Source: Janibacter indicus (GTDB lineage Bacteria; Actinomycetota; Actinomycetes; Actinomycetales; Dermatophilaceae). From it: a stretch of DNA of 64,000 nucleotides. This document shows positions 1 to 64,000 of this stretch, one piece after another. The notes beneath the pieces were generated by a model. That model worked only from the letters and a program-made list of their open reading frames with translations. It did not search any database and was not told the DNA's origin. Every line of letters starts with the position of its first letter. Position 1 is the stretch's first letter. The position numbers and the translations under genes are program-made. The stretch is taken from assembly GCF_900176385.1 (NCBI RefSeq), contig NZ_FWXN01000007.1:1-64000 (forward strand), given 5' to 3'.

Positions 1-126
1 ACCGTAGCAGCGGAGCTGCTCGGTTCCAAATCCGCGGTTCCGACCTGATCGGCCGGATCCGAGTAACTCGGATGGGGGCTGTCAGCTCGCGGGACTGGCC
101 TGCCTGGTGTGACTCTTGCGAGTCAC
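1..126 (-). other. Hairpin-rich probable rRNA operon leader
   Basis: No convincing protein is encoded between the left edge and position 240. The stretch holds short perfect inverted repeats: GTGACTC/GAGTCAC around 110-127, TCCGAGT/ACTCGGA around 58-72 and AGCAGC/GCTGCT near 6-20. Together with a strong minus-strand promoter just upstream (167-196) this looks like the 5' leader of a structured RNA transcribed leftward out of the window, most likely the 16S rRNA operon. The 16S gene itself is not in the window, so this rests on inference. Confidence 0.4.
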
Positions 127-166
127 CGCGTGGTGTCCGTTCCTCCCTCTCGGGCTGACGTCGAGA

Positions 167-196
167 ACATTAGATCACCGATCCCGACTTCACCAA
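167..196 (-). promoter_or_regulatory. Probable rRNA operon promoter
   Basis: On the minus strand a -35 element TTGGTG (191-196) and a -10 element TAATGT (167-172) are separated by 18 bp. They lie directly after the tyrS terminator hairpin and before the hairpin-rich stretch that leaves the left edge. The good -10 match and the absence of any reading frame downstream favour a stable-RNA promoter. No boxA antitermination site was recognised. Confidence 0.45.
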
Positions 197-198
197 AT

Positions 199-238
199 CG
201 GGGTCGGATCCCCCGAGTTTCCGGGCGATCCGACCCCG
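199..238 (-). terminator. tyrS terminator hairpin
   Basis: A perfect 12-bp inverted repeat (CGGGGTCGGATC and its complement) encloses a loop that itself has a short CCCG/CGGG stem. It begins 19 bp after the tyrS stop codon. There is no T-run, so it is a T-less or Rho-assisted type terminator. It abuts the -35 of the putative rRNA promoter, insulating that promoter from tyrS transcription. Confidence 0.6.
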
Positions 239-257
239 AGTGGGTGTCGTTGGCGGG

Positions 258-1529
258 TCAGCGCTGCCGGGCCGCCGCGAGGTTCCTGCGGCCCCGTCGC
301 AGGACGGCCACCCGCCCGTGCAGGTAGTCCCCCGGCCCGAGGACGAACTGCTCGTCGGACACCTTGGTGCCGTTGACCGAGACCGCGCCGTCCGAGATCG
401 CGCGACGCGCGGCCTTCTTGGAGTCGACGAGCCCGGTCGCCACGAGAGCATCGAGCAGCCCCGTGCCCACGGGGACATCGGCGCCGGGCAGCTCGGCCGT
501 CGCGTCGAGCAGCGTGCCGGCGTCCAGTGCCGTGAGATCGCCCTTGCCGAAGAGGGCTTCCGAGGCCGCCTGGACCGAGATCGTGGCGGCCTCGCCGTGG
601 ACGAGCGTCGTCATGTCGGACGCCAAGGCTCGCTGGGCCGCACGACGGTGGGGCTCGTCCTTGACGAGCCGCTCGAGCTCGTCGATCTCCTCGCGGCCTC
701 GGTCGGTGAAGACCTTGAGCAGCTTGACCACGGAGGCGTCCTCGACGTTGAGGAAGTACTGGTAGAAGGCGTAGGGACTGGTCATGTCGGCGGACAACCA
801 GATGGCATTGCCCTCGGACTTGCCGTACTTGACCCCGTGGGAGTCGGTGAGCAGCGGCGAGGTCAGAGCATGGACCGACCCGCCCTCCGCACGGTGGATG
901 AGGTCGACCCCCGCAGTGAGGTTGCCCCACTGGTCGGACCCGCCGAGCTGGAGCGTGCAGTCGTACTGGCGGTAGAGCTCGAGGTAGTCCAACGCCTGGA
1001 GGAGCTGGTAGCTGAACTCCGTGTAGGAGATGCCCTCTTGGCTCTCGAGCCGGGCCGAGATCGCGTCCTTGCGGATCATCTGGTTGACCCGGAAGTGCTT
1101 GCCGATGTCCCGCAGGAAGTCGAGCGCGGTCATCGGTGCGGTCCAGTCGAGGTTGTCGACGAGGATCGCCGGGTGCGCGACGCCGCTGCTCCCGTCGAAG
1201 TCGAGGAAGGGGCGCACGAGCTCCTTGATCCGGGAGACGTTGTGCGCCGTGTGCTCCTTGGTCCGCAGCTGGCGCTCACTCGTCGGCTTGGGGTCACCGA
1301 TGAGCCCGGTGGACCCGCCGACGAGGCAGATCACCTTGTGGCCGGCGCGCTGGAACCGTCGCAGGGCGACGAGCTGCACGAAGTTGCCGAAGTGCAGAGA
1401 GGGCGCGGTCGGGTCGAAGCCGCAATACACCGTGATCGGTCCGTCGGCGAGGGCCTGTCGCAGGGCGGCCTCGTCGGTGGTCTGCGCCACCGCTCCGCGC
1501 CACTGCAGCTCGTCGAGGATGTCGGTCAC
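258..1529 (-). CDS. tyrS: Tyrosyl-tRNA synthetase
   Basis: Class Ic aminoacyl-tRNA synthetase charging tRNA-Tyr in the cytoplasm. In the 423-residue product the HIGH-like signature is LHFGN at residues 45-49 and the KMSKS-like loop is KYGKS at 234-238. The C-terminal part (about residues 345-415) has the S4-type RNA-binding fold, with SKKAARRAISDGAVSVNG as its core. An upstream in-frame start at 1622 is possible, but the GTG at 1529 is preceded by GGAAGGA at good spacing and gives the usual family N terminus (TDILDELQWRG). Transcribed alone toward the left edge, divergent from bfd. Confidence 0.97.
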   Translation of the reverse strand: MTDILDELQWRGAVAQTTDEAALRQALADGPITVYCGFDPTAPSLHFGNFVQLVALRRFQRAGHKVICLVGGSTGLIGDPKPTSERQLRTKEHTAHNVSRIKELVRPFLDFDGSSGVAHPAILVDNLDWTAPMTALDFLRDIGKHFRVNQMIRKDAISARLESQEGISYTEFSYQLLQALDYLELYRQYDCTLQLGGSDQWGNLTAGVDLIHRAEGGSVHALTSPLLTDSHGVKYGKSEGNAIWLSADMTSPYAFYQYFLNVEDASVVKLLKVFTDRGREEIDELERLVKDEPHRRAAQRALASDMTTLVHGEAATISVQAASEALFGKGDLTALDAGTLLDATAELPGADVPVGTGLLDALVATGLVDSKKAARRAISDGAVSVNGTKVSDEQFVLGPGDYLHGRVAVLRRGRRNLAAARQR

Positions 1530-1669: not shown

Positions 1670-1718
1670 CTCCCTTCGTAGGGTTAAGGTATGCCTCACC
1701 TCACGAAGACGAAGGGAG
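1670..1718 (+). promoter_or_regulatory. DtxR/IdeR-type iron box of bfd-bfr with flanking inverted repeat
   Basis: The 19-bp stretch 1685-1703 (TAAGGTATGCCTCACCTCA) matches the DtxR/IdeR consensus TTAGGTTAGCCTAACCTAA at 14 of 19 positions. It lies just before bfd, whose product and neighbour handle stored iron. A 10-bp perfect inverted repeat (CTCCCTTCGT at 1670-1679, ACGAAGGGAG at 1709-1718) brackets the box. Its right arm contains the bfd ribosome binding site, so an RNA starting upstream of 1670 could mask it. Whether the box represses or activates cannot be told from sequence. Confidence 0.6.
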
Positions 1719-1725
1719 ACCGGGC

Positions 1726-2422: not shown

Positions 2423-3038
2423 CCCGCGGCTTGCCCGGCCGATAGGCCGAGACCGTCGGCTCCCCGTCGAGCCAGAAGCGCCACGGGTAGTCGGCTCCGT
2501 CTCCCCCGGGTCCCGAGACCCCCACCCGCGGCCCGGTACGGATGCGCTGGGGGTCGACGGGCTCGTCGGGCGCGACGAGGGCGATGGGAGCGCGTCTCCC
2601 GACCAGCGCGCTGCCGTCGTGCTCGCCGGTCAGCCCCAGGGCGCGGGTCAGTCGACCCGGCCCACGGGCCAGGTCTCGCGCAGGCACGTCGCCGCGGCGC
2701 TCTCGAGCGGTCTCCTCCCCCCGGACCACCTCACCGGCCCGAAGGAGGACCGCAGCGCACTCCCCCTTCGATCCCACGACGACGTTGGCGCACCAGTGGA
2801 TGCCGTAGGAGCGGTAGACGTAGAGATGCCCGGGCGGACCGAACATCACCTCGGTGCGTGGGGTCATCCCCCGGTAGCCGTGCGAGCCCGGGTCGTTGCC
2901 GCCCCAGTAGGCCTCGACCTCGGTCAGGCGGAGCGTGACGTCGCCGGCCACCAGCCGGGTCCCGAGCAGCATGGGTGCGACGGACAGGGGGTCGCCCGCC
3001 AGGTCGGACCCGGTCAGGCGACGACCCCTCGTGGTCAC
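2409..3038 (-). CDS. mpg: DNA-3-methyladenine glycosylase (AAG/MPG family)
   Basis: Monofunctional base-excision glycosylase of the alkyladenine type, 209 residues. Visible signatures are EVEAY at residues 40-44, carrying the catalytic Glu of the family, and YGIHWCANVV at 78-87. It is the last gene of the arginine cluster and starts (GTG, 3038) one base after the argH stop, so it is probably co-transcribed with the arg genes though unrelated in function. Its tail overlaps bfr on the other strand by 14 bases. Confidence 0.93.
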   Translation of the reverse strand: MTTRGRRLTGSDLAGDPLSVAPMLLGTRLVAGDVTLRLTEVEAYWGGNDPGSHGYRGMTPRTEVMFGPPGHLYVYRSYGIHWCANVVVGSKGECAAVLLRAGEVVRGEETARERRGDVPARDLARGPGRLTRALGLTGEHDGSALVGRRAPIALVAPDEPVDPQRIRTGPRVGVSGPGGDGADYPWRFWLDGEPTVSAYRPGKPRVRRG

Positions 3039-3039
3039 G

Positions 3040-4993
<1,954 letters not shown>

Positions 4994-4997
<4 letters not shown>

Positions 4998-5932
4998 GAC
5001 GAGGCGCGCAGGAGGAAGGTGAGCAGGGCCTTCTGTGCGTGCAGCCGGTTTTCGGCCTCGTCCCACACGACCGAGTGCGGCCCGTCGATGACGTCCGCCG
5101 CGATCTCCAGACCACGGTAGGCGGGCAGGCAGTGCAGGACGATCGCGTCGGCCGCGGCGTGGCCCAGCAGGTGCGTCGTCACGGCGAAGGGGGCGAAGGG
5201 CGAGGTCTGCCCGGTGCGATCCCCCTTCTCGCCCTCCATGCCCATCGACACCCAGGTGTCGGTCGCGACGACGTCGGCTCCCGCCACCGCGGCCGTGGGG
5301 TCATCGGTGACGAGGACCGATCCAGCCTCCTCGCCGGCGATGCGCTCGGCCCTGGCCAGGACGTCGGCCGAGGGCTGGTGGCTGGCCGGGGTCCCGATGC
5401 GCACGTGCATCCCGGCGAGGGCGCAGGCGAGGAGGTAGGAGTGCGCCATGTTGTTGGCCCCGTCGCCGACGTAGGCGATGGTGCGGCCAGCCGTCGAGCC
5501 CTTGTGCTCGCGGATCGTCAGCAGGTCGGCGAGCAGCTGGCAGGGGTGGTAGTCGTCGGTCAGCGCGTTGACCACCGGCACGTCGACGTGGTCGGCCATC
5601 TCCTGCAGCCGGTCCTGACCGTGCGTGCGCCAGACGATGGCGCTCACCTGGCGCCCCACGACCCGGGCGACGTCGGCGATCGACTCGCGGGTGCCGATCT
5701 GGGCGAGGTTGCCGTCGACGACCATCGGGTAGCCGCCGAGCTCGGCGACGCCGGTGGTGAAGGACAGCTGGGTGCGCAGCGTCGGCTTGTCGAAGATGAT
5801 CGCGACCGACCGGGGCCCGGCGAGCGGCTGCTCGGCGTGCCGGTCGGCCTTGAGCGCGGCCGCGAGGTCGAGGACCTGCGACTGCTCCGCGGCCGTGAGG
5901 TCGTCGTCGGCGAGCAGGTGGCGGACGGTCAT
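4994..5932 (-). CDS. argF: Ornithine carbamoyltransferase
   Basis: Joins ornithine and carbamoyl phosphate to give citrulline. The product has 312 residues. The ornithine-loop HCLP is at 267-270 and DGANNMAHS near 157-165. The carbamoyl-phosphate motif, STRTR in most family members, reads TLRTQ here (51-55). Start ATG 5932 overlaps the argD stop (ATGA); an apparent upstream extension is only the shadow of argD. The other family possibility, acetylornithine carbamoyltransferase, is unlikely given argJ and argD alongside. Confidence 0.95.
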
Positions 5933-7137
5933 GCGGACTCCTTGGCGGCCTCGTCGAGGATCCCGGGCAGGGCGTCGACGAAGCTCGTGAGCTGGTCGGT
6001 GGTGATGGTGAGCGGCGGCGCCAGCCGCAGCGCGTCGGGCGCGACCGGGTTGATGATGAACCCGTGACGGCGGGCCGCGAGCGCCGCCGCAGGGGCGATC
6101 GGCGCGGTCAGGGCGATGGCGCGAAGCAGCCCCGCCCCACGCACACCGGCGACCCGGGGGTGCTCCAGCGCCGTCACCCGCTCGACGAGCAGGTCTCCGG
6201 CGGTGACCGCGTGCTCGACCAGACCCTCGGACTCGATGGTCGACATCACTGCGAGGGCTGCGCTGCAGGCGAGCGGGTTGCCGCCGAAGGTCGAGCCGTG
6301 CTGCCCCGCGGTGAGCAGACCGGTGGTCTCCGGACCGAAGGTCACCAGGGCACCGATCGGCACTCCCCCGCCGAGACCCTTGGCGACGGTGATCGCGTCG
6401 GGCACGACGCCGTCGAGCTGGTGGGCGAACCACGCACCGGTGCGCCCGACCCCGGTCTGGATCTCGTCGAGGACGAGCAGGGCGCCGGCCTCGCGGGTGA
6501 TCTCGCGGGCTGCGGCGAGATAGCCCTCCGGGGGCGTCACCACTCCGGCCTCGCCCTGGATGGGTTCGAGCAGGACCATCGCGGTGTCGGGGCCGACGGC
6601 GGCGCGAAGCGCCTCGACGTCACCGGGCTCCACGTGCGTCACCCCGGGCAGGAGCGGTTCGAAGGGGGCCCGGTAGGCCTCCTTGTGGGTCAGGCTCACC
6701 GCTCCGGTGGTCCGGCCGTGGAAGGCACCGCCGACGGCGACGATCCCGGTGCGTCCGGTCCGCCGGGAGAGCTTGATCGCGGTCTCGACGGCCTCGGAAC
6801 CGCTGTTGCAGAAGAAGACGCCCGACCCCTGCGGGGCCTGCGCGACGCGCAGCAGCGCCTCGGCCGCCTCGATCTGCGCGGGGGTCGTGAAGAAGTTGCT
6901 CACGTGGACGAGCTCACCGGCCTGCTTGGAGATCGCCGCGACGAGCTCGGGGTGACCGTGACCGAGCGCGTTGACGGCGATGCCCCCGAGGAGGTCGAGG
7001 TAGCGGGTGCCGTCGACGTCCCACACCCAGGCGCCCTCACCGCGGGCGAGGACGAGGCCGGGAAGGCCGAAGACCCCGATGTGGCTGGCGCGATAGCGCT
7101 CGAGCAGAGCCTGGTGATGCTCGCTGGGGGTGCTCAT
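5929..7137 (-). CDS. argD: Acetylornithine aminotransferase
   Basis: Class III PLP aminotransferase making N-acetylornithine from the semialdehyde and glutamate. In 402 residues, the PLP-binding lysine is K253 in AKGLGGG, with the cofactor-contacting NSGSEAVE at 111-118 and LDEIQTG at 223-229. Four-base overlaps join it to argB upstream and argF downstream. Such enzymes often also act on succinyldiaminopimelate; the sequence does not decide this. Confidence 0.97.
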
Positions 7138-8111: not shown

Positions 8112-12879
<4,768 letters not shown>

Positions 12880-13998: not shown

Positions 13999-14835
13999 TC
14001 AGTCCAGATCGTGCACGGTCAGCCGGTCGCGCGGGTGCAGCCGGCCGAGGACGAGGTTCATCACCGGCTCGGGTCCGCGCTGGTGGCGCGAGTAGGCGGT
14101 GGCACCGGACTCGTAGAGCTGGTGCAGCCGCCCGTCGACGACGACCGAGCCCTCGGCCATGGGCGGCAGCAGGGTGTTGCGTCCGGTCAGGGGTGTCCAC
14201 CCCCCGTCCCGGCGGAAGTCCCCCGCGTCCACCCGGGTGAGTGTCGACGGCGCGGTGCGCCCCCAGCTGCGCGAGAACCACACGGCCCGATCCTCGTCGA
14301 AGGCCATCCCCTGGGTGCGCGGCGGGACGACGAGCTCCTCACCGCTCCACTGCGGACGTCCCTCGTCGTCGAGGACGTAGCGGTAGGTGCGCCCCGGTCC
14401 GTCGACGACGAACCGGGTGACCCACAGCTCGCCGTCGTGGGCGGTGACGGTCGAGCTGGCCTGGACCTTGACCGTGAGCACCGGGTCGGCGATGCCCTCG
14501 CGCAGCCGGGCCGTCTCGTGGACCTGCAGCCGCCCCCGACCACTGACGTAGGTCCGGTCACCGAGGACGGTCACACCCCCGTAGTGGTCGAGTCCGGTGA
14601 GCTCGACGCGGGCCGTGGCCTCCCCCTTCGCATCGGCGATGACGAGGAGGCCGTCCCGGGGATTACGGGCGTCGTAGAAGGTGTAGAGCCACTCGTCGTG
14701 CTCCGCGTCGTGGGCCAGCCCCTGGGGCACCTCCGTGCCGCCGGGGACGAAGGGGATGACCGCACCGGCCTCGACCTCGCCCGGTCCGCGTCGCCGCCAC
14801 CTGATCCACTGCCGCAGGGTCCGCCACCACGTCAT
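13999..14835 (-). CDS. Uncharacterised protein, beta-propeller-like
   Basis: Not recognised with certainty. The 278-residue product has a short Trp/Arg-rich N terminus ([13 protein letters not shown]), no signal peptide and no clear membrane helix, followed by repeating beta-strand segments with [23 protein letters not shown] and [13 protein letters not shown], suggesting a propeller or lactonase-like fold. A -10-like TAGGGT lies eight bases before ATG 14835, so it may be leaderless. It is divergent from the furA-like gene and ends 24 bases before pheS; a functional link to either is not evident. Confidence 0.7.
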
Positions 14836-16964: not shown

Positions 16965-17014
16965 CACGACGAAGGGCGCCGCTCCCCGCACCGGGGGCGG
17001 CGCCCTTCGTCGTG
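16965..17014. terminator. Bidirectional terminator after katA and the RNA methyltransferase gene
   Basis: An 18-bp perfect stem (16965-16982 with 16997-17014) with a 14-base loop fills the 60-bp gap between two convergent genes. The arms are built on GACGAAGGGCGCC, an inverted pair of the CGAAGGG word that recurs across the window. No T-run is present on either side. Confidence 0.8.
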
Positions 17015-19223: not shown

Positions 19224-19352
19224 CACCAGAGCACGACACCACACCCGGACGAAGGGAGCGACGGTGCCACTCCCGCGGTCGGGACCGCGTCGAGACCTGT
19301 GACCCGGCAACCCAGCGGTCCATGCGAACCTGTGGTCGACGCGGGTGGAAGC

Positions 19353-20905: not shown

Positions 20906-21555
20906 AGTGACATCACCCAGTTCTTCAGGAGGTGCAGCCCGGCGTCCCCGGATTTTTCGGGGTGGAACTGCGTGGCGGACAAGGGGCCGTTCTCGACGGC
21001 GGCGACGAAGGGGGACCCGTGCTCACTCCACGTGACGAGGGGCGCTGCAGCCGAGAGCGCGCCATCGGGTCGGGGCAGGTCCCAGGTGGGCACCCCGTAG
21101 GAGTGCACGAAGTAGAAGCGCTCGTCCTCGACACCGGCGAAGAGCCGTGTGCCGGTGGGCGCCTCGAGGGTCGACCAGCCCATGTGCGGCACGACGGGTG
21201 CGGCGAGACGGGCGACGGTCCCGGGCCACTGCTGCAGACCCTGCTGCGGTGGTTGGGCACCGCTCGGCTCGTCGGACCCGTCGAACATCACCTGCATGCC
21301 GACGCAGACCCCGAGCACGGGACGACCACCGGCGAGGCGGGTGTCGACGAGCGACGGGCCGTCGACCGCGCGCAGACCGGCCATGCAGGCGTGGAAGTTG
21401 CCCACCCCGGGCACGAGCAGCCCGTCAGCGGCGAGCACCGCCTCGCGGTCGGCGGTCAGCTCGACGCGGGCTCCGACGTGGGCGAGCGCCCGGACGGCGG
21501 AGTGGACGTTGCCGGAACCGTGGTCGAGGACGACGACGTGCGGGCTGGTGCTCAT
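20902..21555 (-). CDS. hisH: Imidazole glycerol phosphate synthase glutaminase subunit
   Basis: Class I glutamine amidotransferase delivering ammonia to HisF. The 217-residue protein has the triad C84 ([10 protein letters not shown]), H198 and E200 ([10 protein letters not shown]), and [10 protein letters not shown] at the oxyanion region. ATG 21555 overlaps the upstream stop (ATGA). HisF, its partner, is not in this part of the operon and is not in the window. Confidence 0.97.
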
Positions 21556-22759: not shown

Positions 22760-23874
22760 GAGGCCTCCTGGCTCGATGCGTGGGTGGTGACGAGCTCGGT
22801 CATCGCCGCGAGGAAGCGACCGGTCTCCTCGGGGGTGCCGGCGGTGACCCGCAGGTGGTGCGGGATACCGACGTCACGGACGAGGACCCCCCGGTCGAGC
22901 AGAGCCTGCCACGTCGCCGGCGCGTCGGCGAGCCCGCCGAAGAGGACGAAGTTGGCATCGCTCGGCACGGGCCGCAGGCCCATCGCGGTCAGCTCGGCGA
23001 CGAGCCGGTCGCGCTGCTCCTTGATCGCGTCGACGGTCTCGAGCAGCCGGTCGGCGTGCTCGAGCGAGACGCGGGCGATCGTCTGCGTGGGGGCCGACAG
23101 GTGGTAGGGCAGGCGGACCAGCCGCAGCGCATCGACGACCTGCGGGTCGGCCGCGAGATACCCCAGGCGGCCACCGGCGAGGGCGAAGGCCTTGCTCATG
23201 GTCCGGGTGACGACCAGGCGCGGGTGGGCGGCCAGCAGCGACAGTGCGCTCGGCGTGCCGGGCCGGGCGAACTCGGCGTAGGCCTCGTCGACGACGACGA
23301 CCGCCCGCGGAGCCGCCTCGAGCATCGCCTCGATGACGTCGAAGGGCAGCGCCGTGCCCGTCGGGTTGTTGGGCGAGCAGAGGAAGACCAGGTGCGGGTC
23401 GACCCGCCGGGCCTGCTCGACGGCGGACTCGACGGTCAGGTCGAAGGAGTCACGGTCGCGCTGGCCGTCGACCCACGTCGTGCCGAGCGTCTCGCTGATG
23501 ATCGGGTGCATCGAGTAGGCAGGCGTGAAGCCGAGCGCCGTGCGGTCCGGTCCGCCGAAGGCCTGGACGAGGTGCGAGAGGACTTCGTTGCTGCCGTTGC
23601 CGGCCCACACCTGCTCGGGACGAAGGGAGACCCCGCTGCGGTCCTCGAGATAGGCGACGAGCGCCGTGCGCAGGTCGGTGAACTCCCGGTCCGGGTAGCG
23701 GTTGAGCCCCCCGAGCTGCTCCTCGAGCTCGGCGACGATGGCCGCGACGACCTCGGGCGGCACCGGGTAGGAGGACTCGTTGGTGTTGAGCTGGACGTCG
23801 ACGTCGAGCTGCGGGGCGCCGTAGGGAGTGCGTCCGCGCAGGGCGGGGCGCAGCAGCTGCTCGATCTCGCTCAT
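22756..23874 (-). CDS. hisC: Histidinol-phosphate aminotransferase
   Basis: Class I/II PLP aminotransferase, 372 residues. The Schiff-base lysine is K228 in [27 protein letters not shown] binds substrate and SPNNPTGT the cofactor. ATG 23874 overlaps the hisD stop. Some members also serve aromatic amino acids; position in the operon supports the histidine role. Confidence 0.97.
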
Positions 23875-37024: not shown

Positions 37025-37056
37025 CCCCCTTCGGCACGTGGCGCGAAGGGAGGGGG
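37025..37056. terminator. Shared terminator of the permease gene and rnpB
   Basis: CCCCCTTCG at 37025-37033 pairs with CGAAGGGAGGGGG at 37044-37056 in a shifted register with a short loop. It starts one base after the permease stop and ends at the 3' end of rnpB, so it can act on both strands. Another inverted CGAAGGG pair. Confidence 0.6.
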
Positions 37057-38231: not shown

Positions 38232-38287
38232 GGCCCCACCCTAGCCCACGGACGAAGGGAGCGAAAACCACCCGTCGCACGCGGGGC

Positions 38288-40538: not shown

Positions 40539-41626
40539 GCACCGCCGAGGCCGCCGAGGTCCTCGCCCGGACCCTTCCGGTCATGGCCTTCCTGGTGGCC
40601 ATCACCGTCGTCGCCGAGATCGCCGACCTCGCGGGCGTCTTCGACGTCGCGGGTCACGCCACGGCCCGCCTGGCCGGTCACCGCACCGTCGTGCTGTGGC
40701 TGCTGCTCGCCGCGCTGGCGGTCCTCGTCACGGCCTTCCTCGGGCTCGACACGACCGCAGTGCTGCTCACGCCGGTCGCGCTCACGGTGGCTCGGCAGGT
40801 CGGGGTGGGGGCAGCCCCCTTCGCGCTGACGACGCTCTTCCTGGCCAACACCGCCTCGCTCTTCCTCCCCGTCTCCAACCTCACCAACCTGCTCGCCGTG
40901 CAGCACCTCGCGACGCTGGGCGCAGGCCACGGCGACTTCGTGCGGCTGACCCTGCTGCCCGGTCTCGCCGCGGTCGCGGGCACCCTGCTCGTCATCGGGC
41001 TCGTGCACCGTCGGGCGCTGACCGGGCGCTACGCCGTCGAGCCCCCGGCAGCGCCCCACGACCGTGTCCTGCTGCGGATCGCGGCGCTCACATGTCTCGT
41101 GAGCGCGCCGCTCTTCGCCGTGGGTCTGCAGCCGTGGCTCGTCGCGTCCGTGGCCGCCCTCGTCCTCCTCGTCGCGATGGCGTGGCGTGCCCCCTTCCTG
41201 CTGCGCCAGGTCCGTCCGCCGTGGGGCATGGCCCTCGTCGTCGCCGGTCTCTTCGTGCTCGTGCAGCTGCTGCTCGACGCGGGCGCGGGAGCCGTGCTGG
41301 CCGACCTGTCGGGTTCGGGCGAGGGCGTGGGGGACCTCGCCCGCGTCGCCGGCCTCGGCGCGCTGGCGGCCAACCTGCTCAACAACCTGCCGGGCTATCT
41401 CGCCCTCGAGGCGGCTGCCGGGACGACACCCACGCGGCTCGTGGCGCTGCTCGTCGGCACCAACGTCGCGCCGATCGTCACCCCGTGGGGGTCGCTCGCC
41501 ACGCTCCTGTGGCTGCACCGGGTGCGCGCGGCCGGACTGCGGGTCGCCCCGCTGCACCTCGTCGCCCAGGGACTCGCGGTGGCGCTCGTCGCCGGCGGCG
41601 CCGCCGTCCTCGCCCTCGCCGGGTGA
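40535..41626 (+). CDS. ArsB/NhaD-type (ion transporter superfamily) permease
   Basis: Membrane protein of 363 residues with about 10 helices. LGLDTTAVLLTPVALTVARQ and TLFLANTASLFLPVSNLTNLL form the first inverted half; ALAANLLNNLPGYLALEA and LLVGTNVAPIVTPWGSLATLLW the second, as in ArsB/NhaD/CitM transporters. No ars genes are nearby, so arsenite is not implied; an anion or Na+ antiport role is equally possible. Coupled to yaaA by a four-base overlap. Confidence 0.88.
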   Translation: MSTAEAAEVLARTLPVMAFLVAITVVAEIADLAGVFDVAGHATARLAGHRTVVLWLLLAALAVLVTAFLGLDTTAVLLTPVALTVARQVGVGAAPFALTTLFLANTASLFLPVSNLTNLLAVQHLATLGAGHGDFVRLTLLPGLAAVAGTLLVIGLVHRRALTGRYAVEPPAAPHDRVLLRIAALTCLVSAPLFAVGLQPWLVASVAALVLLVAMAWRAPFLLRQVRPPWGMALVVAGLFVLVQLLLDAGAGAVLADLSGSGEGVGDLARVAGLGALAANLLNNLPGYLALEAAAGTTPTRLVALLVGTNVAPIVTPWGSLATLLWLHRVRAAGLRVAPLHLVAQGLAVALVAGGAAVLALAG

Positions 41627-41801: not shown

Positions 41802-43094
41802 TCAGTCGTTGTGCCCGGTGTGAACGACGTCCTCGGCGCCGGGCGCGTCCCTCGATGCCGTGGGCGTGGGTGTCGCCTGACCGAGCGCGCTCCGCAGGTC
41901 GGCCACGAGGTCCTCGGCGGCCTCGAGACCCACCGAGATCCGCAGGGTGGCGTCGGTGATGCCGATCGCGGCCCGCGCCTCCTCGCCCATGCGGCGGTGG
42001 GTCGTCGTCGCCGGGTGGGTGATGAGCGACTTGGAGTCGCCGAGGTTGTTGGAGATGTCGACGGTGCGCAGCGCGTTCATCACCGCGAAGGCCTCAGCCT
42101 TGCCCCCCTCGATGTCGAAGGTGACGACCGTGCCACCCCCGGTCATCTGCCGCCGAGCCAGCTCGTGCTGGGGGTGCTCCGGGAGCCACGGGTGGATGAC
42201 CCGGGCCACCTTGGGGTGCTCCGTCAGGGCCCGGGCGACCGCGAGCGAGGACTCGGCCATGCGTCGCACTCTTAGGTCCATCGTCTCCAGGCCCTTGAGC
42301 AGCACCCAGGCGTTGAAGGGCGACAGCGACGGACCGGTGTGCCGGATGAGGTTGCGGACGGGGCCGTCGATGTAGTCCTGCGGCCCGAGGATCGCGCCAC
42401 CGAGCACGCGGCCCTGGCCGTCGATGTGCTTGGTCGCCGAGTAGACGACGATGTCGGCGCCGTGCTCGAGCGGCCGGGAGAAGACGGGCGTGCCGAAGAC
42501 GTTGTCGACGACGACCTGGGCCCCGGCGGCGTGCGCGAGCTCGCTCACCGCGCCGATGTCGACGAGCTCCTGCATCGGGTTGCTCGGCGTCTCGAAGAAC
42601 ACGGCGGTCGTCGGCTCGGACAGCGCCTCGCGCCACTGGTCGAGGTCGGGCCCGTCGACGAAGACGGTCTCGACACCCCACCGCGGCAGGATCTCGTCGA
42701 GGATGACGAAGCAGCTGCCGAAGAGGCCACGGGAGGAGACGACTCGGTCCCCCCGTGCCAGGAGCGCCGCGAGGGCGGTGAAGACGGCAGACATGCCCGA
42801 TGCCGTCGCGTAGGCCGCCTCGGCTCCCTCGAGCAGCCGCAGCCGCTCCTCGAGCATCGCCACGGTCGGGTTGCCGTAGCGCGAGTACACGAACTTGTCG
42901 ACCTCGTCAGTGAAGGCCGCCTCGGCCTCTTCGGCGCTGCCGTAGACGAAGCCGGAGGTCAGGTAGAGCGCCTCGGAGGTCTCGTCGAAGGTCGACCTGG
43001 CCTGCCCGCCCCGCACCGCGAGGGTCTGCGGGGACAGCCCCTCGGGATCGAGGTAGGGACGAGGGTTGTCCGGGCCGAAGGGAGTCGCGCTCAC
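41802..43094 (-). CDS. metZ: O-succinylhomoserine sulfhydrylase
   Basis: Cys/Met-metabolism PLP enzyme, 430 residues, forming homocysteine from an activated homoserine and sulfide. PLP lysine K222 in YSATKHIDGQGR; SGMSAVFTAL and YSRYGNPTVAMLEERL are cofactor-contact regions. The MetZ-type spacing and GGxILG after the lysine favour sulfhydrylase over cystathionine gamma-synthase. GTG 43094 overlaps the rhodanese stop; coupling to a rhodanese fits a sulfur-handling unit. Ends in a Pro/Thr/Ala-rich tail. Confidence 0.92.
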   Translation of the reverse strand: MSATPFGPDNPRPYLDPEGLSPQTLAVRGGQARSTFDETSEALYLTSGFVYGSAEEAEAAFTDEVDKFVYSRYGNPTVAMLEERLRLLEGAEAAYATASGMSAVFTALAALLARGDRVVSSRGLFGSCFVILDEILPRWGVETVFVDGPDLDQWREALSEPTTAVFFETPSNPMQELVDIGAVSELAHAAGAQVVVDNVFGTPVFSRPLEHGADIVVYSATKHIDGQGRVLGGAILGPQDYIDGPVRNLIRHTGPSLSPFNAWVLLKGLETMDLRVRRMAESSLAVARALTEHPKVARVIHPWLPEHPQHELARRQMTGGGTVVTFDIEGGKAEAFAVMNALRTVDISNNLGDSKSLITHPATTTHRRMGEEARAAIGITDATLRISVGLEAAEDLVADLRSALGQATPTPTASRDAPGAEDVVHTGHND

Positions 43095-45993: not shown

Positions 45994-46853
45994 TGCGGGT
46001 CTCCTTGGAGGGGTCGGGCGCCGACGGTGAAGGTCCACGGGTCGGTGCAGATGGTGCTCACGTGGGTGTCCAAGCCCATCACATCGTGGCCCGCCGCGGC
46101 GAGCGACCCCACGAGACGCTCGAGCATCTCGTGCAGCCACAGCGACTCGGTGGCCCAGTGACCGGCGTCGACGACGAAGGGGGTGCCGCCCCGGCTCGTG
46201 GCCTCCTCGCGGGCCTCGAGCACCGGGTGGTGGCGCAGGTCGGAGGTGACGTAGACGTCCGCACCGGCCGCGGCCGCCGCGTCGAGCAGCCCGTCGCCGG
46301 CCCCGCCGAGCAGGGCCACGCGGCGCACCCGGGCATCGGGCGGGCCGGACACCCGCACCCCCGCCGGTGCCGAAGGGAGCGCCGCCGCCAGGCCCGACGC
46401 GAAGTCCGCGAGGGTCACCGGCTCGTCGAGGTCACCGACGCGTCCCATGGGGCGGCCCTCCTCGACGCTCAGCGGCTCGCTCGTCGTCAGGCCGCACGCG
46501 GTGGCCAGGGCGGTGTTGACGCCCGGCTCGGCGACGTCGGCGTTGGTGTGCGCGACGTAGAGGGCGACGTCTCCGACGACGAGCGAGGTGACGGCCGCTC
46601 CCTTCGCGCTCGTCGTGGCGACCGAGTGCACGCCGCGCAGGAGCAACGGGTGGTGCGTGACGAGCAGGTCCGCTCCGGCCTCGCGGGCCTCCTCGATGAC
46701 GGCGAGGGTCGGGTCGACCGCGGCGTGGATGCGCCGCACGGGCTGCTCGGGGTCGCCGGTCACGAGGCCGACGCGGTCCCACGACTGCGCCGAGTCGAGC
46801 GGGAAGGTCTGCTCGAGGACCGCCAGGACGTCCTGGAGGCGAAGGTGGCTCAT
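45990..46853 (-). CDS. Nif3-like dinuclear metal centre protein
   Basis: 287-residue NIF3/YbgI-family protein; metal-binding positions include THHPLLLRG, HTNAD and the late GHWATE region. Family members are hexameric rings with two metals; biochemical role uncertain (GTP cyclohydrolase-like naming is not safe). Its ATG (46851-46853) comes two bases after the 3' end of tRNA-Val on the same strand, with no space for a ribosome binding site of its own. Confidence 0.93.
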   Translation of the reverse strand: MSHLRLQDVLAVLEQTFPLDSAQSWDRVGLVTGDPEQPVRRIHAAVDPTLAVIEEAREAGADLLVTHHPLLLRGVHSVATTSAKGAAVTSLVVGDVALYVAHTNADVAEPGVNTALATACGLTTSEPLSVEEGRPMGRVGDLDEPVTLADFASGLAAALPSAPAGVRVSGPPDARVRRVALLGGAGDGLLDAAAAAGADVYVTSDLRHHPVLEAREEATSRGGTPFVVDAGHWATESLWLHEMLERLVGSLAAAGHDVMGLDTHVSTICTDPWTFTVGARPLQGDPQ

Positions 46854-50397: not shown

Positions 50398-50915
50398 AGT
50401 CCTGCTCGCTGCGCCTCGCCACGTGCGGCCAGACGCACACGCAGCTCCTCGGCCACGTCGGCCGGCAGGCCGCAGATCGTCCCGCTGCTCGCCGGCGAGG
50501 CGGTGTTGACGGTGATCTCGGCCAGCCCGGCGCGTCGCATGTAGGGACCGGAGCTGAGGTCGACGTACTGGATGCGGCCGTAGGGCACGGTGACCAGGCG
50601 CCGCCACATGCGACCACGGCGGATGGCCAGCTCCTCGGGCAGCTCGGCCCAGCTCATCGCCCGCACCTGGACCCCGATGAGCCACATGAGCCAGGCCCAC
50701 AAGACGACGACCAGTGCGGAGCCGACCGCCAGCCAGGGCCACAGCAACGCCGCGGCGACGCCGAGGGCCAGCGCCACCGGCAGGAGCACCGCGCTCGTGC
50801 TCACCCGGCGCACCCGGGCGAGCGCGGGCGAGACGGGCCGCCAGTCCGCGCCACCGTCGCCGCGCAGCGGGAGCACGTGCGGGACCGAAGGGGGCGGGGT
50901 TGGCTGCTCGTCCAC
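50394..50915 (-). CDS. bPH2-domain membrane protein (YdbS type)
   Basis: 173-residue partner of the larger bPH2 protein: Pro-rich N terminus, two helices (STSAVLLPVALALGVAAALL and LVVVLWAWLMWLIGV), then one PH-like domain with GRMWRRLVTVPYGRIQYVDLSSGPYMRR. GTG 50915 is six bases after a -10-like TGTGAT (50922-50927), a leaderless start that opens the bPH2-DUF3052-AhpE run. Divergent from fdhD. Confidence 0.88.
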   Translation of the reverse strand: MDEQPTPPPSVPHVLPLRGDGGADWRPVSPALARVRRVSTSAVLLPVALALGVAAALLWPWLAVGSALVVVLWAWLMWLIGVQVRAMSWAELPEELAIRRGRMWRRLVTVPYGRIQYVDLSSGPYMRRAGLAEITVNTASPASSGTICGLPADVAEELRVRLAARGEAQRAGL

Positions 50916-50995: not shown

Positions 50996-51868
50996 ATGGG
51001 TCGGGTGACGCAGCGGCTCAAGGTGGAGCGACGTGACGGACGCACCCTGCGTCGCATCGAGTCGGTCGCCGTCGAGGAGCCGCTCGAGATCCGGGTCGCG
51101 GCCCTGCCCGACGGGGGCGTGCCTGCCGGGAGCTCCCCCCTTCGTCCGCCGTCGACGACCGTCACGACGACGATGCGCCTGCCCGGCGATGACTTCGACC
51201 TCGCCCTCGGGCACCTCGTCGCGGAGGGACTCGTCGCGGGGGCCGAGGACGTCGCGACGATGATGCACTGCACCGACACCGCGCCGGACGGCTCGCCGAC
51301 CTTCAACGTCGTCGAGGTGACCCTCGCGGCCGGGGTCTCCCTGCGGCGACCGGTCACCGAGCGCACCGAGGTCGCGACGAGCGCCTGTGGGGTGTGCGGG
51401 TCGGCGTCCGTGGACGACCTGCTCGCCGTCCTGCCGCACCGCCCCTCGGATGACGACGTCCGGGTGCCGCTCGCGGCGATCCACGCGGGCATGGCCGCGA
51501 TGCGCGAGCGGCAGAAGGTCTTCGAGGCCACCGGCGGGGTCCATGCCGCGGCGCTCCTCGGGCCCGACGGGACCGTGCTCGCCGTCCGCGAGGACATCGG
51601 CCGGCACAACGCGGTGGACAAGGTCCTCGGGTGGGCTGCGCGCGAAGGGGGTCTCCCCCTTCGTGGGCACGTGCTCCTCGTCTCCTCCCGGGCCGGCTTC
51701 GAGATCGCCCAGAAGGCGGCGGTCGCCGGCGTGCCCGTCCTCGCCTGCGTCTCCGCCGCGACGACGCTGGCCGTCGAGGTGGCCGACCGCGCGGGCCTGA
51801 CCCTCCTCGGCTTCGTCCGGGAGCCGCGGGCGACCGCCCTCAGCCACCCGGAGCGGATCACGGACTGA
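50996..51868 (+). CDS. fdhD: FdhD sulfurtransferase for formate dehydrogenase
   Basis: Transfers sulfur to the molybdenum cofactor of formate dehydrogenase. 290 residues; the conserved CGVC is C131-C134, and REDIGRHNAVDKVLG and VLLVSSRAGFEIAQKA are family blocks. ATG 50996 has a perfect AGGAGGT five bases upstream. No formate dehydrogenase is in the window. A 9-bp CGAAGGGGG/CCCCCTTCG hairpin lies inside the coding sequence at 51643-51663. Confidence 0.95.
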   Translation: MGRVTQRLKVERRDGRTLRRIESVAVEEPLEIRVAALPDGGVPAGSSPLRPPSTTVTTTMRLPGDDFDLALGHLVAEGLVAGAEDVATMMHCTDTAPDGSPTFNVVEVTLAAGVSLRRPVTERTEVATSACGVCGSASVDDLLAVLPHRPSDDDVRVPLAAIHAGMAAMRERQKVFEATGGVHAAALLGPDGTVLAVREDIGRHNAVDKVLGWAAREGGLPLRGHVLLVSSRAGFEIAQKAAVAGVPVLACVSAATTLAVEVADRAGLTLLGFVREPRATALSHPERITD

Positions 51869-54766: not shown

Positions 54767-55600
54767 TCAGCGCACACCCTCCCGGAGGCCACGGACTCGC
54801 TCGACGAGTCTCGTGGCCTCCGGGCTGTCGAGGCGGATGCCGAGCAGGGGCAGGAGCTCGGGCAGCTCCTCCACCGCGTACGGACGCTGCCGCGAGGGCT
54901 CCCCTGCCCTCCGCTCGGTGATCGTGTCCGTGGACACCGACACCTGGACCGGGGTGCCGTCGGCGGCCACCCCGTGGCGAGCGAGCGTGAGCGAGCGGCG
55001 GAAGTGCGAGCGCGGCGACGTGGACGTCCAGTGGTGGCCCATCGCGACATCGACCTCCCGCACCTGCAGCTCGTCCATCGTGTGCATGTGCTCCCAGCCC
55101 CCGGAGCGCACCCGCCACAGCTGCCAGGCCGCGCCGGCGCTCCCTTCGTCGACCCGGCGGATCTCGTGCGGCCAGATCCCGCCCTCGACGCGGGCACCGT
55201 CGCGCAGCTCGATCGGCGCCGTCGGCGGCACCCCGATGCCGGGGTCGCACAGGTGGCGAACGCCGTCGATCGTCACGACCACCGCGAGGTGGGTCCGTGG
55301 GGCCGTGGCCGGGTCACCGACGCGCCCGAGGAGCAGGCGGGCGTCGTAGCCGAGGGCGAGGAGCACCGCATTGAAGAGGGTCGCGTGCTCGAAGCAGTAC
55401 CCGCCCCGGTGGTGGTCGAGGAACTTCGCCCCGACCGTGTCGAGGTCCACGCCCCGGTGCTGGCCGAGGAGCACGTCGACGGTGTCGAAGGGGAAGGTCG
55501 TCACGTGGGCGTGGAGTAGCCGGGTCAGCGCCGCGAGGGACGGAGTCTCCTCCGCAGCGCCCGTGCGCCCGAGGTATGCGGCCAGGTCGATGTCGGTCAT
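54767..55600 (-). CDS. nat: Arylamine N-acetyltransferase
   Basis: Acetyl-CoA-dependent acetyl transfer to arylamines and hydrazines, 277 residues. Catalytic triad C69 (RGGYCFEH), H104 (THLAV) and D119 (CDPGIG). C-terminal beta-barrel and lid domain are complete. ATG 55600 overlaps the DUF2470 gene stop (ATGA), so it is co-translated with a gene that has an iron box; that link between NAT and iron is unusual. Convergent with aceE. Confidence 0.95.
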   Translation of the reverse strand: MTDIDLAAYLGRTGAAEETPSLAALTRLLHAHVTTFPFDTVDVLLGQHRGVDLDTVGAKFLDHHRGGYCFEHATLFNAVLLALGYDARLLLGRVGDPATAPRTHLAVVVTIDGVRHLCDPGIGVPPTAPIELRDGARVEGGIWPHEIRRVDEGSAGAAWQLWRVRSGGWEHMHTMDELQVREVDVAMGHHWTSTSPRSHFRRSLTLARHGVAADGTPVQVSVSTDTITERRAGEPSRQRPYAVEELPELLPLLGIRLDSPEATRLVERVRGLREGVR

Positions 55601-56412: not shown

Positions 56413-56451
56413 GACGAAGGGAGGGTGCGCCGGGCGCGCCCTCCCTTCGTC
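56413..56451 (-). terminator. Terminator of the glycerophosphodiesterase gene
   Basis: GACGAAGGGAGGG pairs with CCCTCCCTTCGTC over 13 bp, extended by a GCGC core. It starts 13 bases after the glycerophosphodiesterase stop and abuts the iron box of the next gene. Inverted CGAAGGG pair; no T-run. Confidence 0.8.
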
Positions 56452-57684: not shown

Positions 57685-59190
<1,506 letters not shown>

Positions 59191-60425: not shown

Positions 60426-60456
60426 CATCTCCCCCCTCGACCGCGACTCTGGATGG

Positions 60457-61638
60457 GTGCTCGCCATCACCTGCCCCGGACAGGGCTCCCAGTCCCCCGG
60501 CTTCCTCAACCCCTGGCTCGAGCTGCCCGGCGTGGCCGACCGCCTGCACTGGCTCTCGGCCGTGGCCGGCATCGACCTCGCCGCGCACGGCACGACGAGC
60601 GACGAGGAGACGATCAAGGACACCGCGATCGCGCAGCCGCTCATCGTCGCCGCGGGCCTGCTCTCGCTGCTGGCCCTCTTCGAGCACCCGGCCGACGGCT
60701 TCCGCGTGGTCGGCGCCGGTGCCGGCCACAGCGTCGGCGAGATCACCGCGGCCAGCGCCGCAGGCGTCATCTCTGCCGAGCAGGCCATGGTCCTCGTCCG
60801 CGAGCGCGGTCGCGGCATGGCCGCCGCGGCACAGGCCACCCCCACCGGGATGAGCGCCGTCCTCGGCGGCGACCCCGACGAGGTGCTCGCGACCATCGCC
60901 CGGCACGGCCTCACCCCCGCCAACATCAACGGCGCCGGCCAGGTCGTGGCCGCCGGCACGATCGAGCAGCTGGCCGCCCTCGCCGAGGCCCCGCCGGCCA
61001 AGGCGCGGGTCATGCCGCTCAAGGTCGCCGGCGCCTTCCACACCGAGCACATGTCCCCCGCCGTCGCCGAGATGGGCCGGCTGGCCCGCGCCGTCTCGAC
61101 CCACGACGCCCGGGTCCCGCTCGTCTCCAACGTCGACGGTGCCGTCATCCACTCCGGCCGCGAGGTGCTCTCCCGCATCGTCAGCCAGGTGAGCAACCCG
61201 GTGCGCTGGGACCTGTGCATGGAGACCCTCAAGGACCTCGGCGTCACCGGGGTCATCGAGATCCCGCCGGCCGGTGCGCTCACGGGTCTGGCCAAGCGCG
61301 GTCTCAAGGGAGTCGAGGTGCTCGCCCTCAAGACGCCCGACGACCTCGAGGCCGCCCACCGCATGGTGCGCGAGCACGGCTCAGCTCGGTCGGCCTCGCA
61401 GCCGACCTGGCGCCTGGTCACCGCACCGGCCAAGGGCACCGTCGAGGTCGGCTCGGCCGGCCCCGGCGCGGCCGTCACCCCGGGCGACGTCGTGGCCCGC
61501 ATCTCCTCCCTTCGCGACACCCTCGAGGTGCGGGCCCACCACGGCGGCACCGTCGTCGAGTGGCTCGTCGAGGACGGCGACCCGGTCTCCCCCGGCCAGC
61601 CCCTGCTGCGCCTGCACCCCGAGGGGTCGATCGCGTGA
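60457..61638 (+). CDS. fabD: Malonyl-CoA:ACP transacylase with C-terminal lipoyl-like domain
   Basis: Loads malonyl onto ACP. The transacylase domain (1-300) has GQGSQ at 8-12, S92 in GHSVGE and H195 in GAFHTEHM. Residues about 317-388 form an added biotinyl/lipoyl-like beta barrel (VTAPAKGTVEV, VTPGDVVARI, GGTVVEWLVEDGDPVSPGQPLL), but the position of the modifiable lysine is Arg353 (SLRDTLEV). Typical FabD ends near 310. GTG 60457 is six bases after a -10-like GACTCT. fabH overlaps by four bases. Confidence 0.95.
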   Translation: MLAITCPGQGSQSPGFLNPWLELPGVADRLHWLSAVAGIDLAAHGTTSDEETIKDTAIAQPLIVAAGLLSLLALFEHPADGFRVVGAGAGHSVGEITAASAAGVISAEQAMVLVRERGRGMAAAAQATPTGMSAVLGGDPDEVLATIARHGLTPANINGAGQVVAAGTIEQLAALAEAPPAKARVMPLKVAGAFHTEHMSPAVAEMGRLARAVSTHDARVPLVSNVDGAVIHSGREVLSRIVSQVSNPVRWDLCMETLKDLGVTGVIEIPPAGALTGLAKRGLKGVEVLALKTPDDLEAAHRMVREHGSARSASQPTWRLVTAPAKGTVEVGSAGPGAAVTPGDVVARISSLRDTLEVRAHHGGTVVEWLVEDGDPVSPGQPLLRLHPEGSIA

Positions 61639-62639: not shown

Positions 62640-62708
62640 TTCACCCGTCGGTCCGACGGGTCATCGGGCCAGCACACCGCCCCAACCGCACACACAAGGA
62701 GCAGTTCC

Positions 62709-62960
62709 ATGGCATTCAGCGACCAGGAGATCCTCGACGGCCTCGCCGAGATCGTCTCGGAGGAGACCGGTGTCGACGCGTCCGAGGTGACCGCCGACAA
62801 GACCTTCACCGACGACCTCGACGTCGACTCGCTGTCGATGATGACGATCGCCGTCACCGCCGAGGAGAAGTTCGGGGCCAAGATCCCCGACGAGGAGGTC
62901 AAGAACCTCAAGACCGTCGGCGACGCCGTCAACTTCATCAAGGCCAACCAGGCGGCCTGA
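62709..62960 (+). CDS. acpP: Acyl carrier protein
   Basis: Acidic carrier of 83 residues with the phosphopantetheine serine S41 in DVDSLSMM. AAGGAG lies eight bases before ATG 62709. The 69-bp gap after fabH contains only this site. Partner of FabD, FabH and FabF around it. Confidence 0.98.
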   Translation: MAFSDQEILDGLAEIVSEETGVDASEVTADKTFTDDLDVDSLSMMTIAVTAEEKFGAKIPDEEVKNLKTVGDAVNFIKANQAA

Positions 62961-62973
62961 CCACGGTGACGTT

Positions 62974-63000
62974 CCCCCCTTCGTCATGAGCGAAGGGGGG
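62974..63000 (+). terminator. Hairpin between acpP and fabF
   Basis: CCCCCCTTCG pairs with CGAAGGGGGG over 10 bp with a 7-base loop, 13 bp after the acpP stop and 40 bp before fabF. It may end part of the transcripts, giving more acpP than fabF message, or protect the acpP 3' end. Inverted CGAAGGG pair. Confidence 0.7.
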
Positions 63001-63040
63001 AGCCGCCCGGTCCTCGTCCACCGACCCACAGGAGCCCCGC

Positions 63041-64000
63041 ATGTCCTCTCCCCGACCCACCGTCGTCGTCACCGGTCTCGGCGCCACGACCCCGCTCGGC
63101 GGGACCGCCGAGGAGACCTGGCAGTCCGTCCTCGCCGGTCGTTCCGGCGCGAGCACGCTCGATGCCTCCTGGGTCGAGGAGTACGAGCTCCCGGTGACCT
63201 TCGCCGCGCAGCTCGCCGTCCCGGTGACCGAGGTGCTCAAGAAGGTCGAGACCAAGCGCCTCGACCCCTTCGCCCAGTACGCGCTCGTCGCCGCACGTGA
63301 GGCCTGGGCCGATGCCGGCTCGCCCGAGGTCGAGCCGGAGCGCCTCGCCAGTGCCGTCGGCACCGGCATCGGTGGCGTGCAGACCCTGCTCACCGCGTGG
63401 GAGGCGCTGCGCACCAAGGGTCCTCGCCGGGTCTACCCGCTGTCGATCCCCATGCTCATGCCCAACTCCGCGTCGGGCACGGTCTCGCTCGAGTTCGGTG
63501 CCCGGGCCGGCGCCCACACCCTCGTCTCGGCCTGCTCCTCAGGCGCCGAGTCGATCGGCTACGGCGCCCACCTCATCCGCGAGGGACTGGCCGACGTCGT
63601 CATCGCCGGCGGCTCCGAGGCCTCGATCCACCCGCTGCCCATCGCCGGCTTCGCCGCGATGCAGGCCCTCTCGACGCGCAACGACTCCCCCCGGACCGCC
63701 TCGCGGCCCTATGACACCGACCGCGACGGCTTCCTCCTCGGTGAGGGCGGGGCGATCCTCGTCCTCGAGTCGGAGGAGCACGCCCGGGCACGCGGCGCCA
63801 ACATCATCTGCACCCTCGCCGGCTTCGGCGTGAGCGCCGACTCGCACCACATCGCCGCGCCCGAGCCCGAGGGCGCCGGGGCCTCCCGCGCCATGGCCGA
63901 CGCGGTGCTCGACGCCGGCGCGACGCCTTCCGACGTGTGCCACATCAATGCCCACGCGACGTCGACCCCCGTCGGCGACGTCGCCGAGGTCGCGGCGATC
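63041..64000 (+). CDS. fabF: 3-oxoacyl-ACP synthase II (partial, runs off the right edge)
   Basis: Elongating ketosynthase. The visible 320 residues carry the catalytic C165 (SACSSGAES) and first active-site His in INAHATSTPVGD; the second histidine and the C terminus lie beyond the window. ATG 63041 has AGGAG at good spacing. The frame is open to the edge. Confidence 0.97.
   Translation, partial: MSSPRPTVVVTGLGATTPLGGTAEETWQSVLAGRSGASTLDASWVEEYELPVTFAAQLAVPVTEVLKKVETKRLDPFAQYALVAAREAWADAGSPEVEPERLASAVGTGIGGVQTLLTAWEALRTKGPRRVYPLSIPMLMPNSASGTVSLEFGARAGAHTLVSACSSGAESIGYGAHLIREGLADVVIAGGSEASIHPLPIAGFAAMQALSTRNDSPRTASRPYDTDRDGFLLGEGGAILVLESEEHARARGANIICTLAGFGVSADSHHIAAPEPEGAGASRAMADAVLDAGATPSDVCHINAHATSTPVGDVAEVAAI

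Follow-up and report, generated by a model that had tools for sequence, protein, structure and literature searches.

The 64,000-nucleotide stretch of the Janibacter indicus genome analysed here (the window; G000:C10:1-64000 of a 3,419,539-base genome in 29 contigs) is interspersed with a short word, CGAAGGGRG (R is A or G), that occurs 2409 times genome-wide (1201 plus and 1208 minus, compared with 13 + 13 for a control), or 704 times per Mb. We propose that this word is probably a DNA uptake sequence for natural transformation in the host genus and in one other genus of the same family; judged from sequence, it works like such a signal, rather than being a proven one. A sequence-only reading of the window had suggested a similar role for the seven-base core CGAAGGG, and this is supported by the codon-aware excess, the lack of strand bias, the presence in sister genomes, the inverted pairs, the com genes and the dialects, all of which fit. 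The G+C content (GC) of the window is 72%, and because its pyruvate dehydrogenase is closest to those of Phycicoccus (76%) and Humibacillus (74%) among the best 80 named records, this protein places the host as an actinobacterium near the Phycicoccus/Humibacillus group.

The core occurs 66 times in the window (CGAAGGG 37, CCCTTCG 29), exactly as first counted by eye, and the approximately 15 copies then expected from base composition are recovered from the window base counts. The leading C belongs to the word, as had been stated: GAAGGG with another leading base and CCCTTC with another trailing base are found 9 times each, 18 in total as compared with the earlier estimate of about 17. The preference for non-coding DNA stands as well, at a higher level than the original fifth of the copies in about 5% of the sequence; with RNase P RNA and tRNA treated as genes, 18 of 66 copies (27%) lie in 3,895 base pairs (bp; 6.1%). 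A maximal-order Markov model of the window predicts 44.3 copies (z 5.9), which is not near expectation and yet only a 1.5-fold excess, a modest value because the model was trained on the same window, so that the word's own sub-words feed the expectation. CAAGGGC/GCCCTTG, the other top Markov 7-mer of the window, was considered as a similar signal and rejected, since 143 of its 159 copies share one sense frame and it looks like codon context.

A codon-aware test departs much further from expectation. For this purpose, the window was combined with 20 stretches of 20 kb drawn from 12 contigs into a 464-kb sample with 455 called genes, and codons were permuted among positions encoding the same amino acid. 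The 7-mer is present in coding sequence 148 times in sense (51.5 expected) and 249 times in antisense (77.5 expected), i.e., 397 against about 129 in total, or roughly threefold. For CGAAGGGRG the coding excess rises to about eightfold (252 vs 31.3, standard deviation 6.1). It is enriched in all six frame and orientation classes, the lowest at 3.6-fold (81 vs 22.2), and four classes with less than one copy expected show 7 to 47. These shuffles exclude codon usage as the cause. Between genes, 94 copies compare with 1.35 expected, where the first-order Markov model used is a weak null.

The boundaries of the word are sharp. The largest coding excesses are found for the 7-mer CGAAGGG, the 8-mer GAAGGGAG, and the 9-mers CGAAGGGAG (67 vs 2.8) and CGAAGGGGG (185 vs 27.9), these two RG forms being ranked first and second among coding 9-mers; intergenic counts are headed by CGAAGGG, CGAAGGGG and CGAAGGGGG, the last being the commonest intergenic 9-mer. 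Among single substitutions of CGAAGGGGG in coding sequence, A at position 8, which gives CGAAGGGAG, is enriched 21.6-fold, and the other 26 all remain at or below 3.0-fold (highest: position 9 A, 3.0; position 9 T, 2.5; position 1 A, 2.3 with 7 copies). The 7-mer of the sequence-only reading was thus abundant as claimed but too short, and the 9-mer is the better word. A sequence logo adds a weaker G at position −2 (65–75%) and A or G at −1, with little beyond, for a fuller consensus of G, then A or G, then CGAAGGGRG. Because the flanks are close to background beyond approximately 11 bp, the word is not a mobile repeat, and a dispersed repeat of the repetitive extragenic palindrome (REP) or miniature inverted-repeat transposable element (MITE) type was rejected. 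In the 464-kb sample, 347 perfect copies stand beside 389 one-mismatch copies spread over 50 variants, an unusually strong consensus; for permuted words the means are 20 perfect copies and a 0.043 ratio, and the maxima of 318 and 0.575 may come from a register-shifted form of CGAAGGGRG, as which they were taken.

The two orientations of the word are balanced. The weak strand bias described earlier was examined in the host genome and in stretches of G259, a one-contig genome of the host genus, and no bias was found in either. The host genome has 171 and 176 words on the two strands over 21 stretches, with scatter below chance (χ2 7.0 on 21 degrees of freedom), and word strand follows neither GC skew (correlation 0.26, p 0.25) nor gene direction (−0.14, p 0.55). 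The corresponding numbers for G259 are 180 and 184 over 21 stretches (χ2 15.6), with a split of 187 to 177 between G-rich and C-rich strands (correlation 0.35, p 0.12). Strand balance in the fetched stretches L081-L083 of contig C7 was taken as true, and plus-only listings on long contigs were not. After merging of pairs, the gaps between sites have a mean of 1.4 kb and a coefficient of variation of 0.83, slightly more even than random. The GAAGGG core resembles the sequence read by SpoIIIE in Bacillus subtilis, and on account of this likeness a translocase-orienting sequence, of the FtsK-orienting polar sequence (KOPS) or SpoIIIE recognition type, has to be considered. The local strand balance speaks against such a guide, as do the opposite-orientation pairs within 30 bp described below. 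With symmetric words and no skew along the replichores at the scales tested, we rejected this explanation, which is extremely improbable.

Inverted pairs of the word accumulate at gene ends. All seven pairs reported in the sequence-only reading exist, some with starts shifted by a few bases, and the gene that carries one of them is fdhD as named (PF02634 match, 50996–51868). Five of the seven fold far better than shuffled sequences (z −5.3 to −9.6), and the pairs at 1672/1710 and 37027/37044 do not. The share of copies in inverted pairs, proposed as a check, was measured on the 464-kb sample: 136 of 533 7-mer copies lie outside genes, in 7.7% of the sequence, and 71 of these 136 are in opposed pairs within 60 bp, as compared with 30 of the 397 coding copies. 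Pairs with 3–30 bp between the copies occur genome-wide 157 times as CGAAGGG..CCCTTCG and 72 times as CCCTTCG..CGAAGGG, with none for controls, and among 198 genomes drawn from across the phylum no genome other than the host has more than 30 copies of the inverted pair, as compared with the 157 of the host. In intergenic DNA the word is densest where the neighbouring genes converge (6.1 per kb), followed by same-strand (4.0) and divergent (2.6) neighbours. Facing copies at gene ends probably double as transcription terminators.

It could be argued that the word is nothing but a common terminator stem that happens to be a common coding string, and the high density of pairs between convergent genes, together with the strong folding of five window pairs, is what such an origin would give. 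Nevertheless, 397 of the 533 copies are within genes, 367 of these are unpaired, and the coding excess over synonymous shuffles largely refutes the idea, to which we give very little credence.

A recurrent intergenic palindrome, CCCTTCGCAAGGGTTTCAAACCCTTGCGAAGGG, contains the word and was seen with close variants at L084:13832, L084:15832, L085:7085, L090:18061, L091:3594 and G000:C18:33098, some copies being flanked by AACTGC...GCAGTT. It may be a longer repeat element or a favoured terminator. In stretches L115 and L157-L167 of G249, another genome of the host genus, intergenic TGCCCGGGC and AACTGCCCG are very frequent, and are perhaps related to the CCCTTCGCAAGGGTTTCAAACCCTTGCGAAGGG palindrome.

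High copy numbers of CGAAGGGRG are confined to two genera in the genomes covered. The presence in sister genomes is complete: the word has 894–2601 copies in 16 of 16 genomes of the host genus (g1; 2.8–3.6 Mb). In a set of 186 genomes of the family, it further reaches 1452–2165 copies in all three genomes of a second genus, possibly Marihabitans (g181), and the other 167 of 167 have at most 127. Of 396 genomes drawn from the whole order, only five are conspicuous, all of them from g1 or g181, the next highest total being 128. De novo searches in stretches of G259, G249 and G286 returned forms of CGAAGGGRG as the top coding 9-mers. In G286, which belongs to g181, the word shows a small dialect shift (263 copies; G at −1 in 70%, G at +7 in 84%, T tolerated at +8 in 30%), and G249, whose copy number is the lowest in the host genus, has a weaker form of the word (292 per Mb).

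Two family genomes chosen as negative controls, G139 and G085 (four 20-kb stretches each, L120-L127), carry another word, CGGCATAC. This word has at least 400 copies in 106 of the 186 family genomes (up to 4724), and reaches that number in some genome of 30 of the 51 genera besides g1 and g181. In each of the 19 CGAAGGGRG genomes it has 41 copies or fewer, and the two words are thus mutually exclusive. CGGCATAC is likewise sharp, with C in front in 96% and T behind in 1% (V follows) of 107 copies of GGCATAC, strand-balanced (65/65 over 11 stretches), and in excess over synonymous shuffles (103 coding copies vs 6.0 in 226 kb). Cross-controls behave as expected by chance: CGAAGGGGG occurs 3 times vs 3.7 in the sampled CGGCATAC genera, which also speaks against a terminator-stem and codon-usage origin within the same family, and the host genome has CGGCATAC once vs 3.0 and a third word, CGGATGCCG, 10 times vs 8.8. 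G204, G279 and G309 lack CGGCATAC although genus mates have hundreds or thousands of copies; natural losses or misplaced genomes are possible.

CGGATGCCG was found 93 times in coding sequence vs 12.7 in ten pooled loci (L008, L009, L012, L013, L014, L017, L023, L034, L037 and L048), which were chosen after most had shown CGGATGCCG, 13 further loci that we assign to the same family being left unpooled. From their genus names, we take the ten to be Microbacteriaceae. In the unselected order-wide draw, family f70 (presumably Microbacteriaceae) is represented by 33 genomes, of which 27 reach 600 copies or more, as compared with a maximum of 495 (in a 9.4-Mb genome) among the other 363; five of the six lower f70 genomes have 353–525 copies, and one has 175, which is background. 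CGGATGCCG is less clean than the other two words, and codon context may contribute to it, because two of the six frame classes have no copy. In genera with neither CGAAGGGRG nor CGGCATAC, candidate words at z 7–9 are CGGCGTAC in g180 (L182-L183), GTGCGCA in g183 (L172-L174) and CCGCATCG in g177 (L180-L181). De novo searches in g191, g151, g198, g157 and G279 (two to four 20-kb stretches each) gave no word that stood out clearly from ordinary GC-rich strings (z about 4–8), as compared with positive controls at z 9.5 (60 kb, CGAAGGGRG type) and z 17 (40 kb, CGGCATAC), so that weaker words could escape. In pooled Micromonospora loci (L019, L020, L022, L042 and L047), GCCGAGCA was seen 78 times vs 21.5.

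Two further alternatives concern words with a role other than uptake. Chi words are short, asymmetric, over-represented and different between lineages, all of which resembles CGAAGGGRG, and CGAAGGGRG is frequent inside genes; a processing or repair signal read by an end-resecting nuclease, with different words in different lineages, would look similar in these respects. Such a signal would not be expected to be locally balanced between strands without orientation bias, to prefer intergenic DNA, or to form inverted pairs at gene ends. We regard a Chi-like function as unlikely; it is the least firmly excluded of the rivals. A word of the HIP1 (highly iterated palindrome) type, linked to DNA modification or to a nucleoid protein and conferring an unspecified advantage, is quite improbable. 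HIP1 is described, in parts of PMC4390886, as highly repeated and tied to methyltransferases, and retention of CGAAGGGRG in every host-genus genome would agree with a role of this kind. However, HIP1 is palindromic and CGAAGGGRG is asymmetric, and the enrichment in pairs and at convergent gene ends has no place in such a model. Every rival fails at least one test among symmetry, coding excess, palindromy and lineage restriction.

An uptake sequence requires a machinery, and the com genes that were looked for are present in the host: the end of contig C22 carries one ComEC (PF03772) and, next to it, a ComEA with HhH and SLBB domains. Of six matches to PF00437, four exceed the cut-off, and three belong to Tad/Flp-like loci (contigs C28, C17 and C11) that also encode TadE-/TadG-like and Flp-sized proteins; several of the TadE/Tad matches fall below the Pfam cut-off, and TadB/C-type domains were scanned for, and found, at the C28 locus only. 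A type IVa competence pilus was not recognised at the PF00437 loci, two weak matches (L105 and L106) being left out. By analogy with ComP, we predict that the word is recognised at the cell surface by part of the Tad/Flp pilus system, most likely a minor pilin of the TadE/F type, which would bind word-bearing double-stranded DNA better than other DNA, the word favouring binding in either orientation. Bound DNA would be passed to ComEA, and a single strand would enter through ComEC and recombine with the chromosome. New copies arising by mutation would spread in the population because word-bearing fragments would be taken up preferentially, and this molecular drive could accumulate words to about 700 per Mb, in and between genes. 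Closely opposed copies would form hairpins and would be retained preferentially at the ends of genes, with a probable second role in transcription termination.

Several observations weigh against an uptake function or favour it weakly. In one 3.9-kb region aligned over 16 host-genus genomes (5 sites, 16 observations), conservation of the word was not above that of other 9-mers (0.354 vs 0.370), a result that counts, if anything, against uptake. Word density falls together with GC: about 4 words per 5 kb where GC exceeds 0.71, then 3.2 at 0.69–0.71, 1.8 at 0.66–0.69 (6 bins) and 0 below 0.66 (1 bin), although the correlation is weak (Spearman 0.25, p 0.016, 92 bins; 0.00 for control 7-mers). 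The lowest-GC bin, which is word-free, overlaps in part a type ISP restriction-modification gene (L092:13637-18430), and the depletion, as of foreign DNA, supports uptake weakly; a second word-free low-GC bin (L082:15001-20000) contains IlvD-family and RTX-repeat genes and no clear mobile DNA. ComEC was rejected as a marker of word-bearing genomes, since it was found in 180 of the 186 genomes of the family, among them some that lack a clear word. The TadE/TadG-like proteins of the Tad loci are candidate receptors. The gene calls in the 464-kb sample rest on a simple caller of our own, and no report of natural transformation of Janibacter was found among the papers listed. In Micrococcus luteus, for which PMC4322843 describes two tad clusters jointly required for transformation and comEA/EC mutants from the same work, the term "uptake sequence" is absent from the main text.

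Compared with known systems, CGAAGGGRG resembles the DNA uptake sequences (DUS) of Neisseriaceae, which are read by ComP. According to passages of PMC3630211, PMC12616744 and PMC1626085, these too are short, continuous, asymmetric words with hundreds to thousands of genic and intergenic copies, and share terminator-linked inverted pairs, clade dialects and near-equal numbers of perfect and one-mismatch copies. The perfect to one-mismatch ratios given for two Neisseria genomes are 1:1.15 and 1:1.45 (in a section of PMC3630211), and pairs of DUS or of the uptake signal sequences (USS) of Pasteurellaceae are described as doubling as terminators (in a part of PMC12616744). Unlike DUS, the word here is unrelated and belongs to Gram-positive Actinomycetota with Tad/Flp loci; and adjacent genera differ in the entire word (CGAAGGGRG or CGGCATAC), whereas DUS are variants around one CTG core. 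The Haemophilus USS has a 9-bp core, dialects split by subclade, and 500–800 words per Mb in Hin-USS genomes as given in PMC12616744 in one passage, a range that includes the 704 of the host. AT-rich downstream parts, which that source describes for USS, do not occur within 15 bp of CGAAGGGRG. Descent from neisserial DUS or pasteurellacean USS was rejected, because the word core differs and the relatives are actinobacterial. M. luteus is similar in being an actinobacterium with comEA/comEC and tad loci that is transformed through Flp pili (parts of PMC4322843 and PMC6370729), and differs in that its main account does not speak of an uptake sequence, whereas the host has an abundant word. As for HIP1, the word is highly iterated and, according to PMC4390886, the function of HIP1 is unsettled.

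The positions of the inverted pairs and single words in the window are collected below. The pair at 29650..29669 adjoins an immune-inhibitor-A-type M6 metallopeptidase gene at 29717–32095.

Inverted pairs of the CGAAGGG core and single CGAAGGGRG words in the window (z, folding relative to shuffles)
Feature	Position	Strand or core starts	Context	Fold
inverted pair	1670..1718	CCCTTCG 1672, CGAAGGG 1710	divergent intergenic, upstream of tyrosyl-tRNA synthetase and ferritin-like genes	z −1.0
inverted pair, 7-mer core then C (no full 9-mer)	16970..17009	16970/17003	flanked by convergent genes for a catalase and a SpoU methylase	strong hairpin, z −8.6
inverted pair	29650..29669	29652/29661	3' of minus-strand M6 peptidase gene	strong hairpin, z −9.6
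inverted pair	37025..37052	37027/37044	convergent: amino acid permease gene end / RNase P RNA 3' end	z −1.8
inverted pair	51643..51663	51643/51657	within fdhD	z −6.2
inverted pair	56415..56449	56415/56443	3' of minus-strand GDPD-family gene	z −5.3
inverted pair	62975..62999	62977/62991	3' of acyl-carrier-type (PP-binding) gene	z −6.6
CGAAGGGRG	2762..2770	−		
CGAAGGGRG	4786..4794	−		
CGAAGGGRG	5185..5193	+		
CGAAGGGRG	6660..6668	+		
CGAAGGGRG	8850..8858	−		
CGAAGGGRG	9951..9959	+		
CGAAGGGRG	12268..12276	+		
CGAAGGGRG	12820..12828	−		
CGAAGGGRG	14622..14630	−		
CGAAGGGRG	19250..19258	+		
CGAAGGGRG	21006..21014	+		
CGAAGGGRG	23621..23629	+		
CGAAGGGRG	25021..25029	+		
CGAAGGGRG	28280..28288	+		
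CGAAGGGRG	29105..29113	−		
CGAAGGGRG	32343..32351	−		
CGAAGGGRG	34169..34177	−		
CGAAGGGRG	35315..35323	+		
CGAAGGGRG	38253..38261	+		
CGAAGGGRG	39807..39815	−		
CGAAGGGRG	40815..40823	−		
CGAAGGGRG	43076..43084	+		
CGAAGGGRG	46175..46183	+		
CGAAGGGRG	46371..46379	+		
CGAAGGGRG	46598..46606	−		
CGAAGGGRG	50886..50894	+		
CGAAGGGRG	51136..51144	−		
CGAAGGGRG	55140..55148	−		
CGAAGGGRG	57698..57706	−		
CGAAGGGRG	61506..61514	−		

A 2025 paper names, in one of its passages, Neisseriaceae and Pasteurellaceae as the only families known to have uptake sequences (PMC12616744), and no report of an uptake word in Actinobacteria was found among the papers listed, judged by titles and abstract openings. 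If CGAAGGGRG is such a sequence, self-specific transformation would have had a further origin, in monoderms that rely on another type of pilus; natural competence would be predicted in genera where it is untried, which would make them easily accessible to genetics; and sets of relatives whose words have nothing in common would help to find the receptor and to address the question of drive versus selection. On a wider proposal the evidence is evenly poised, namely that Gram-positive uptake words extend across the order, with CGAAGGGRG in two genera, CGGCATAC in many genera of the family and CGGATGCCG in a second family, all read by Tad/Flp minor pilins. Should it hold, this would represent a third origin of sequence-specific transformation, outside Proteobacteria and without type IVa pili, in which words have been replaced outright between neighbouring genera.

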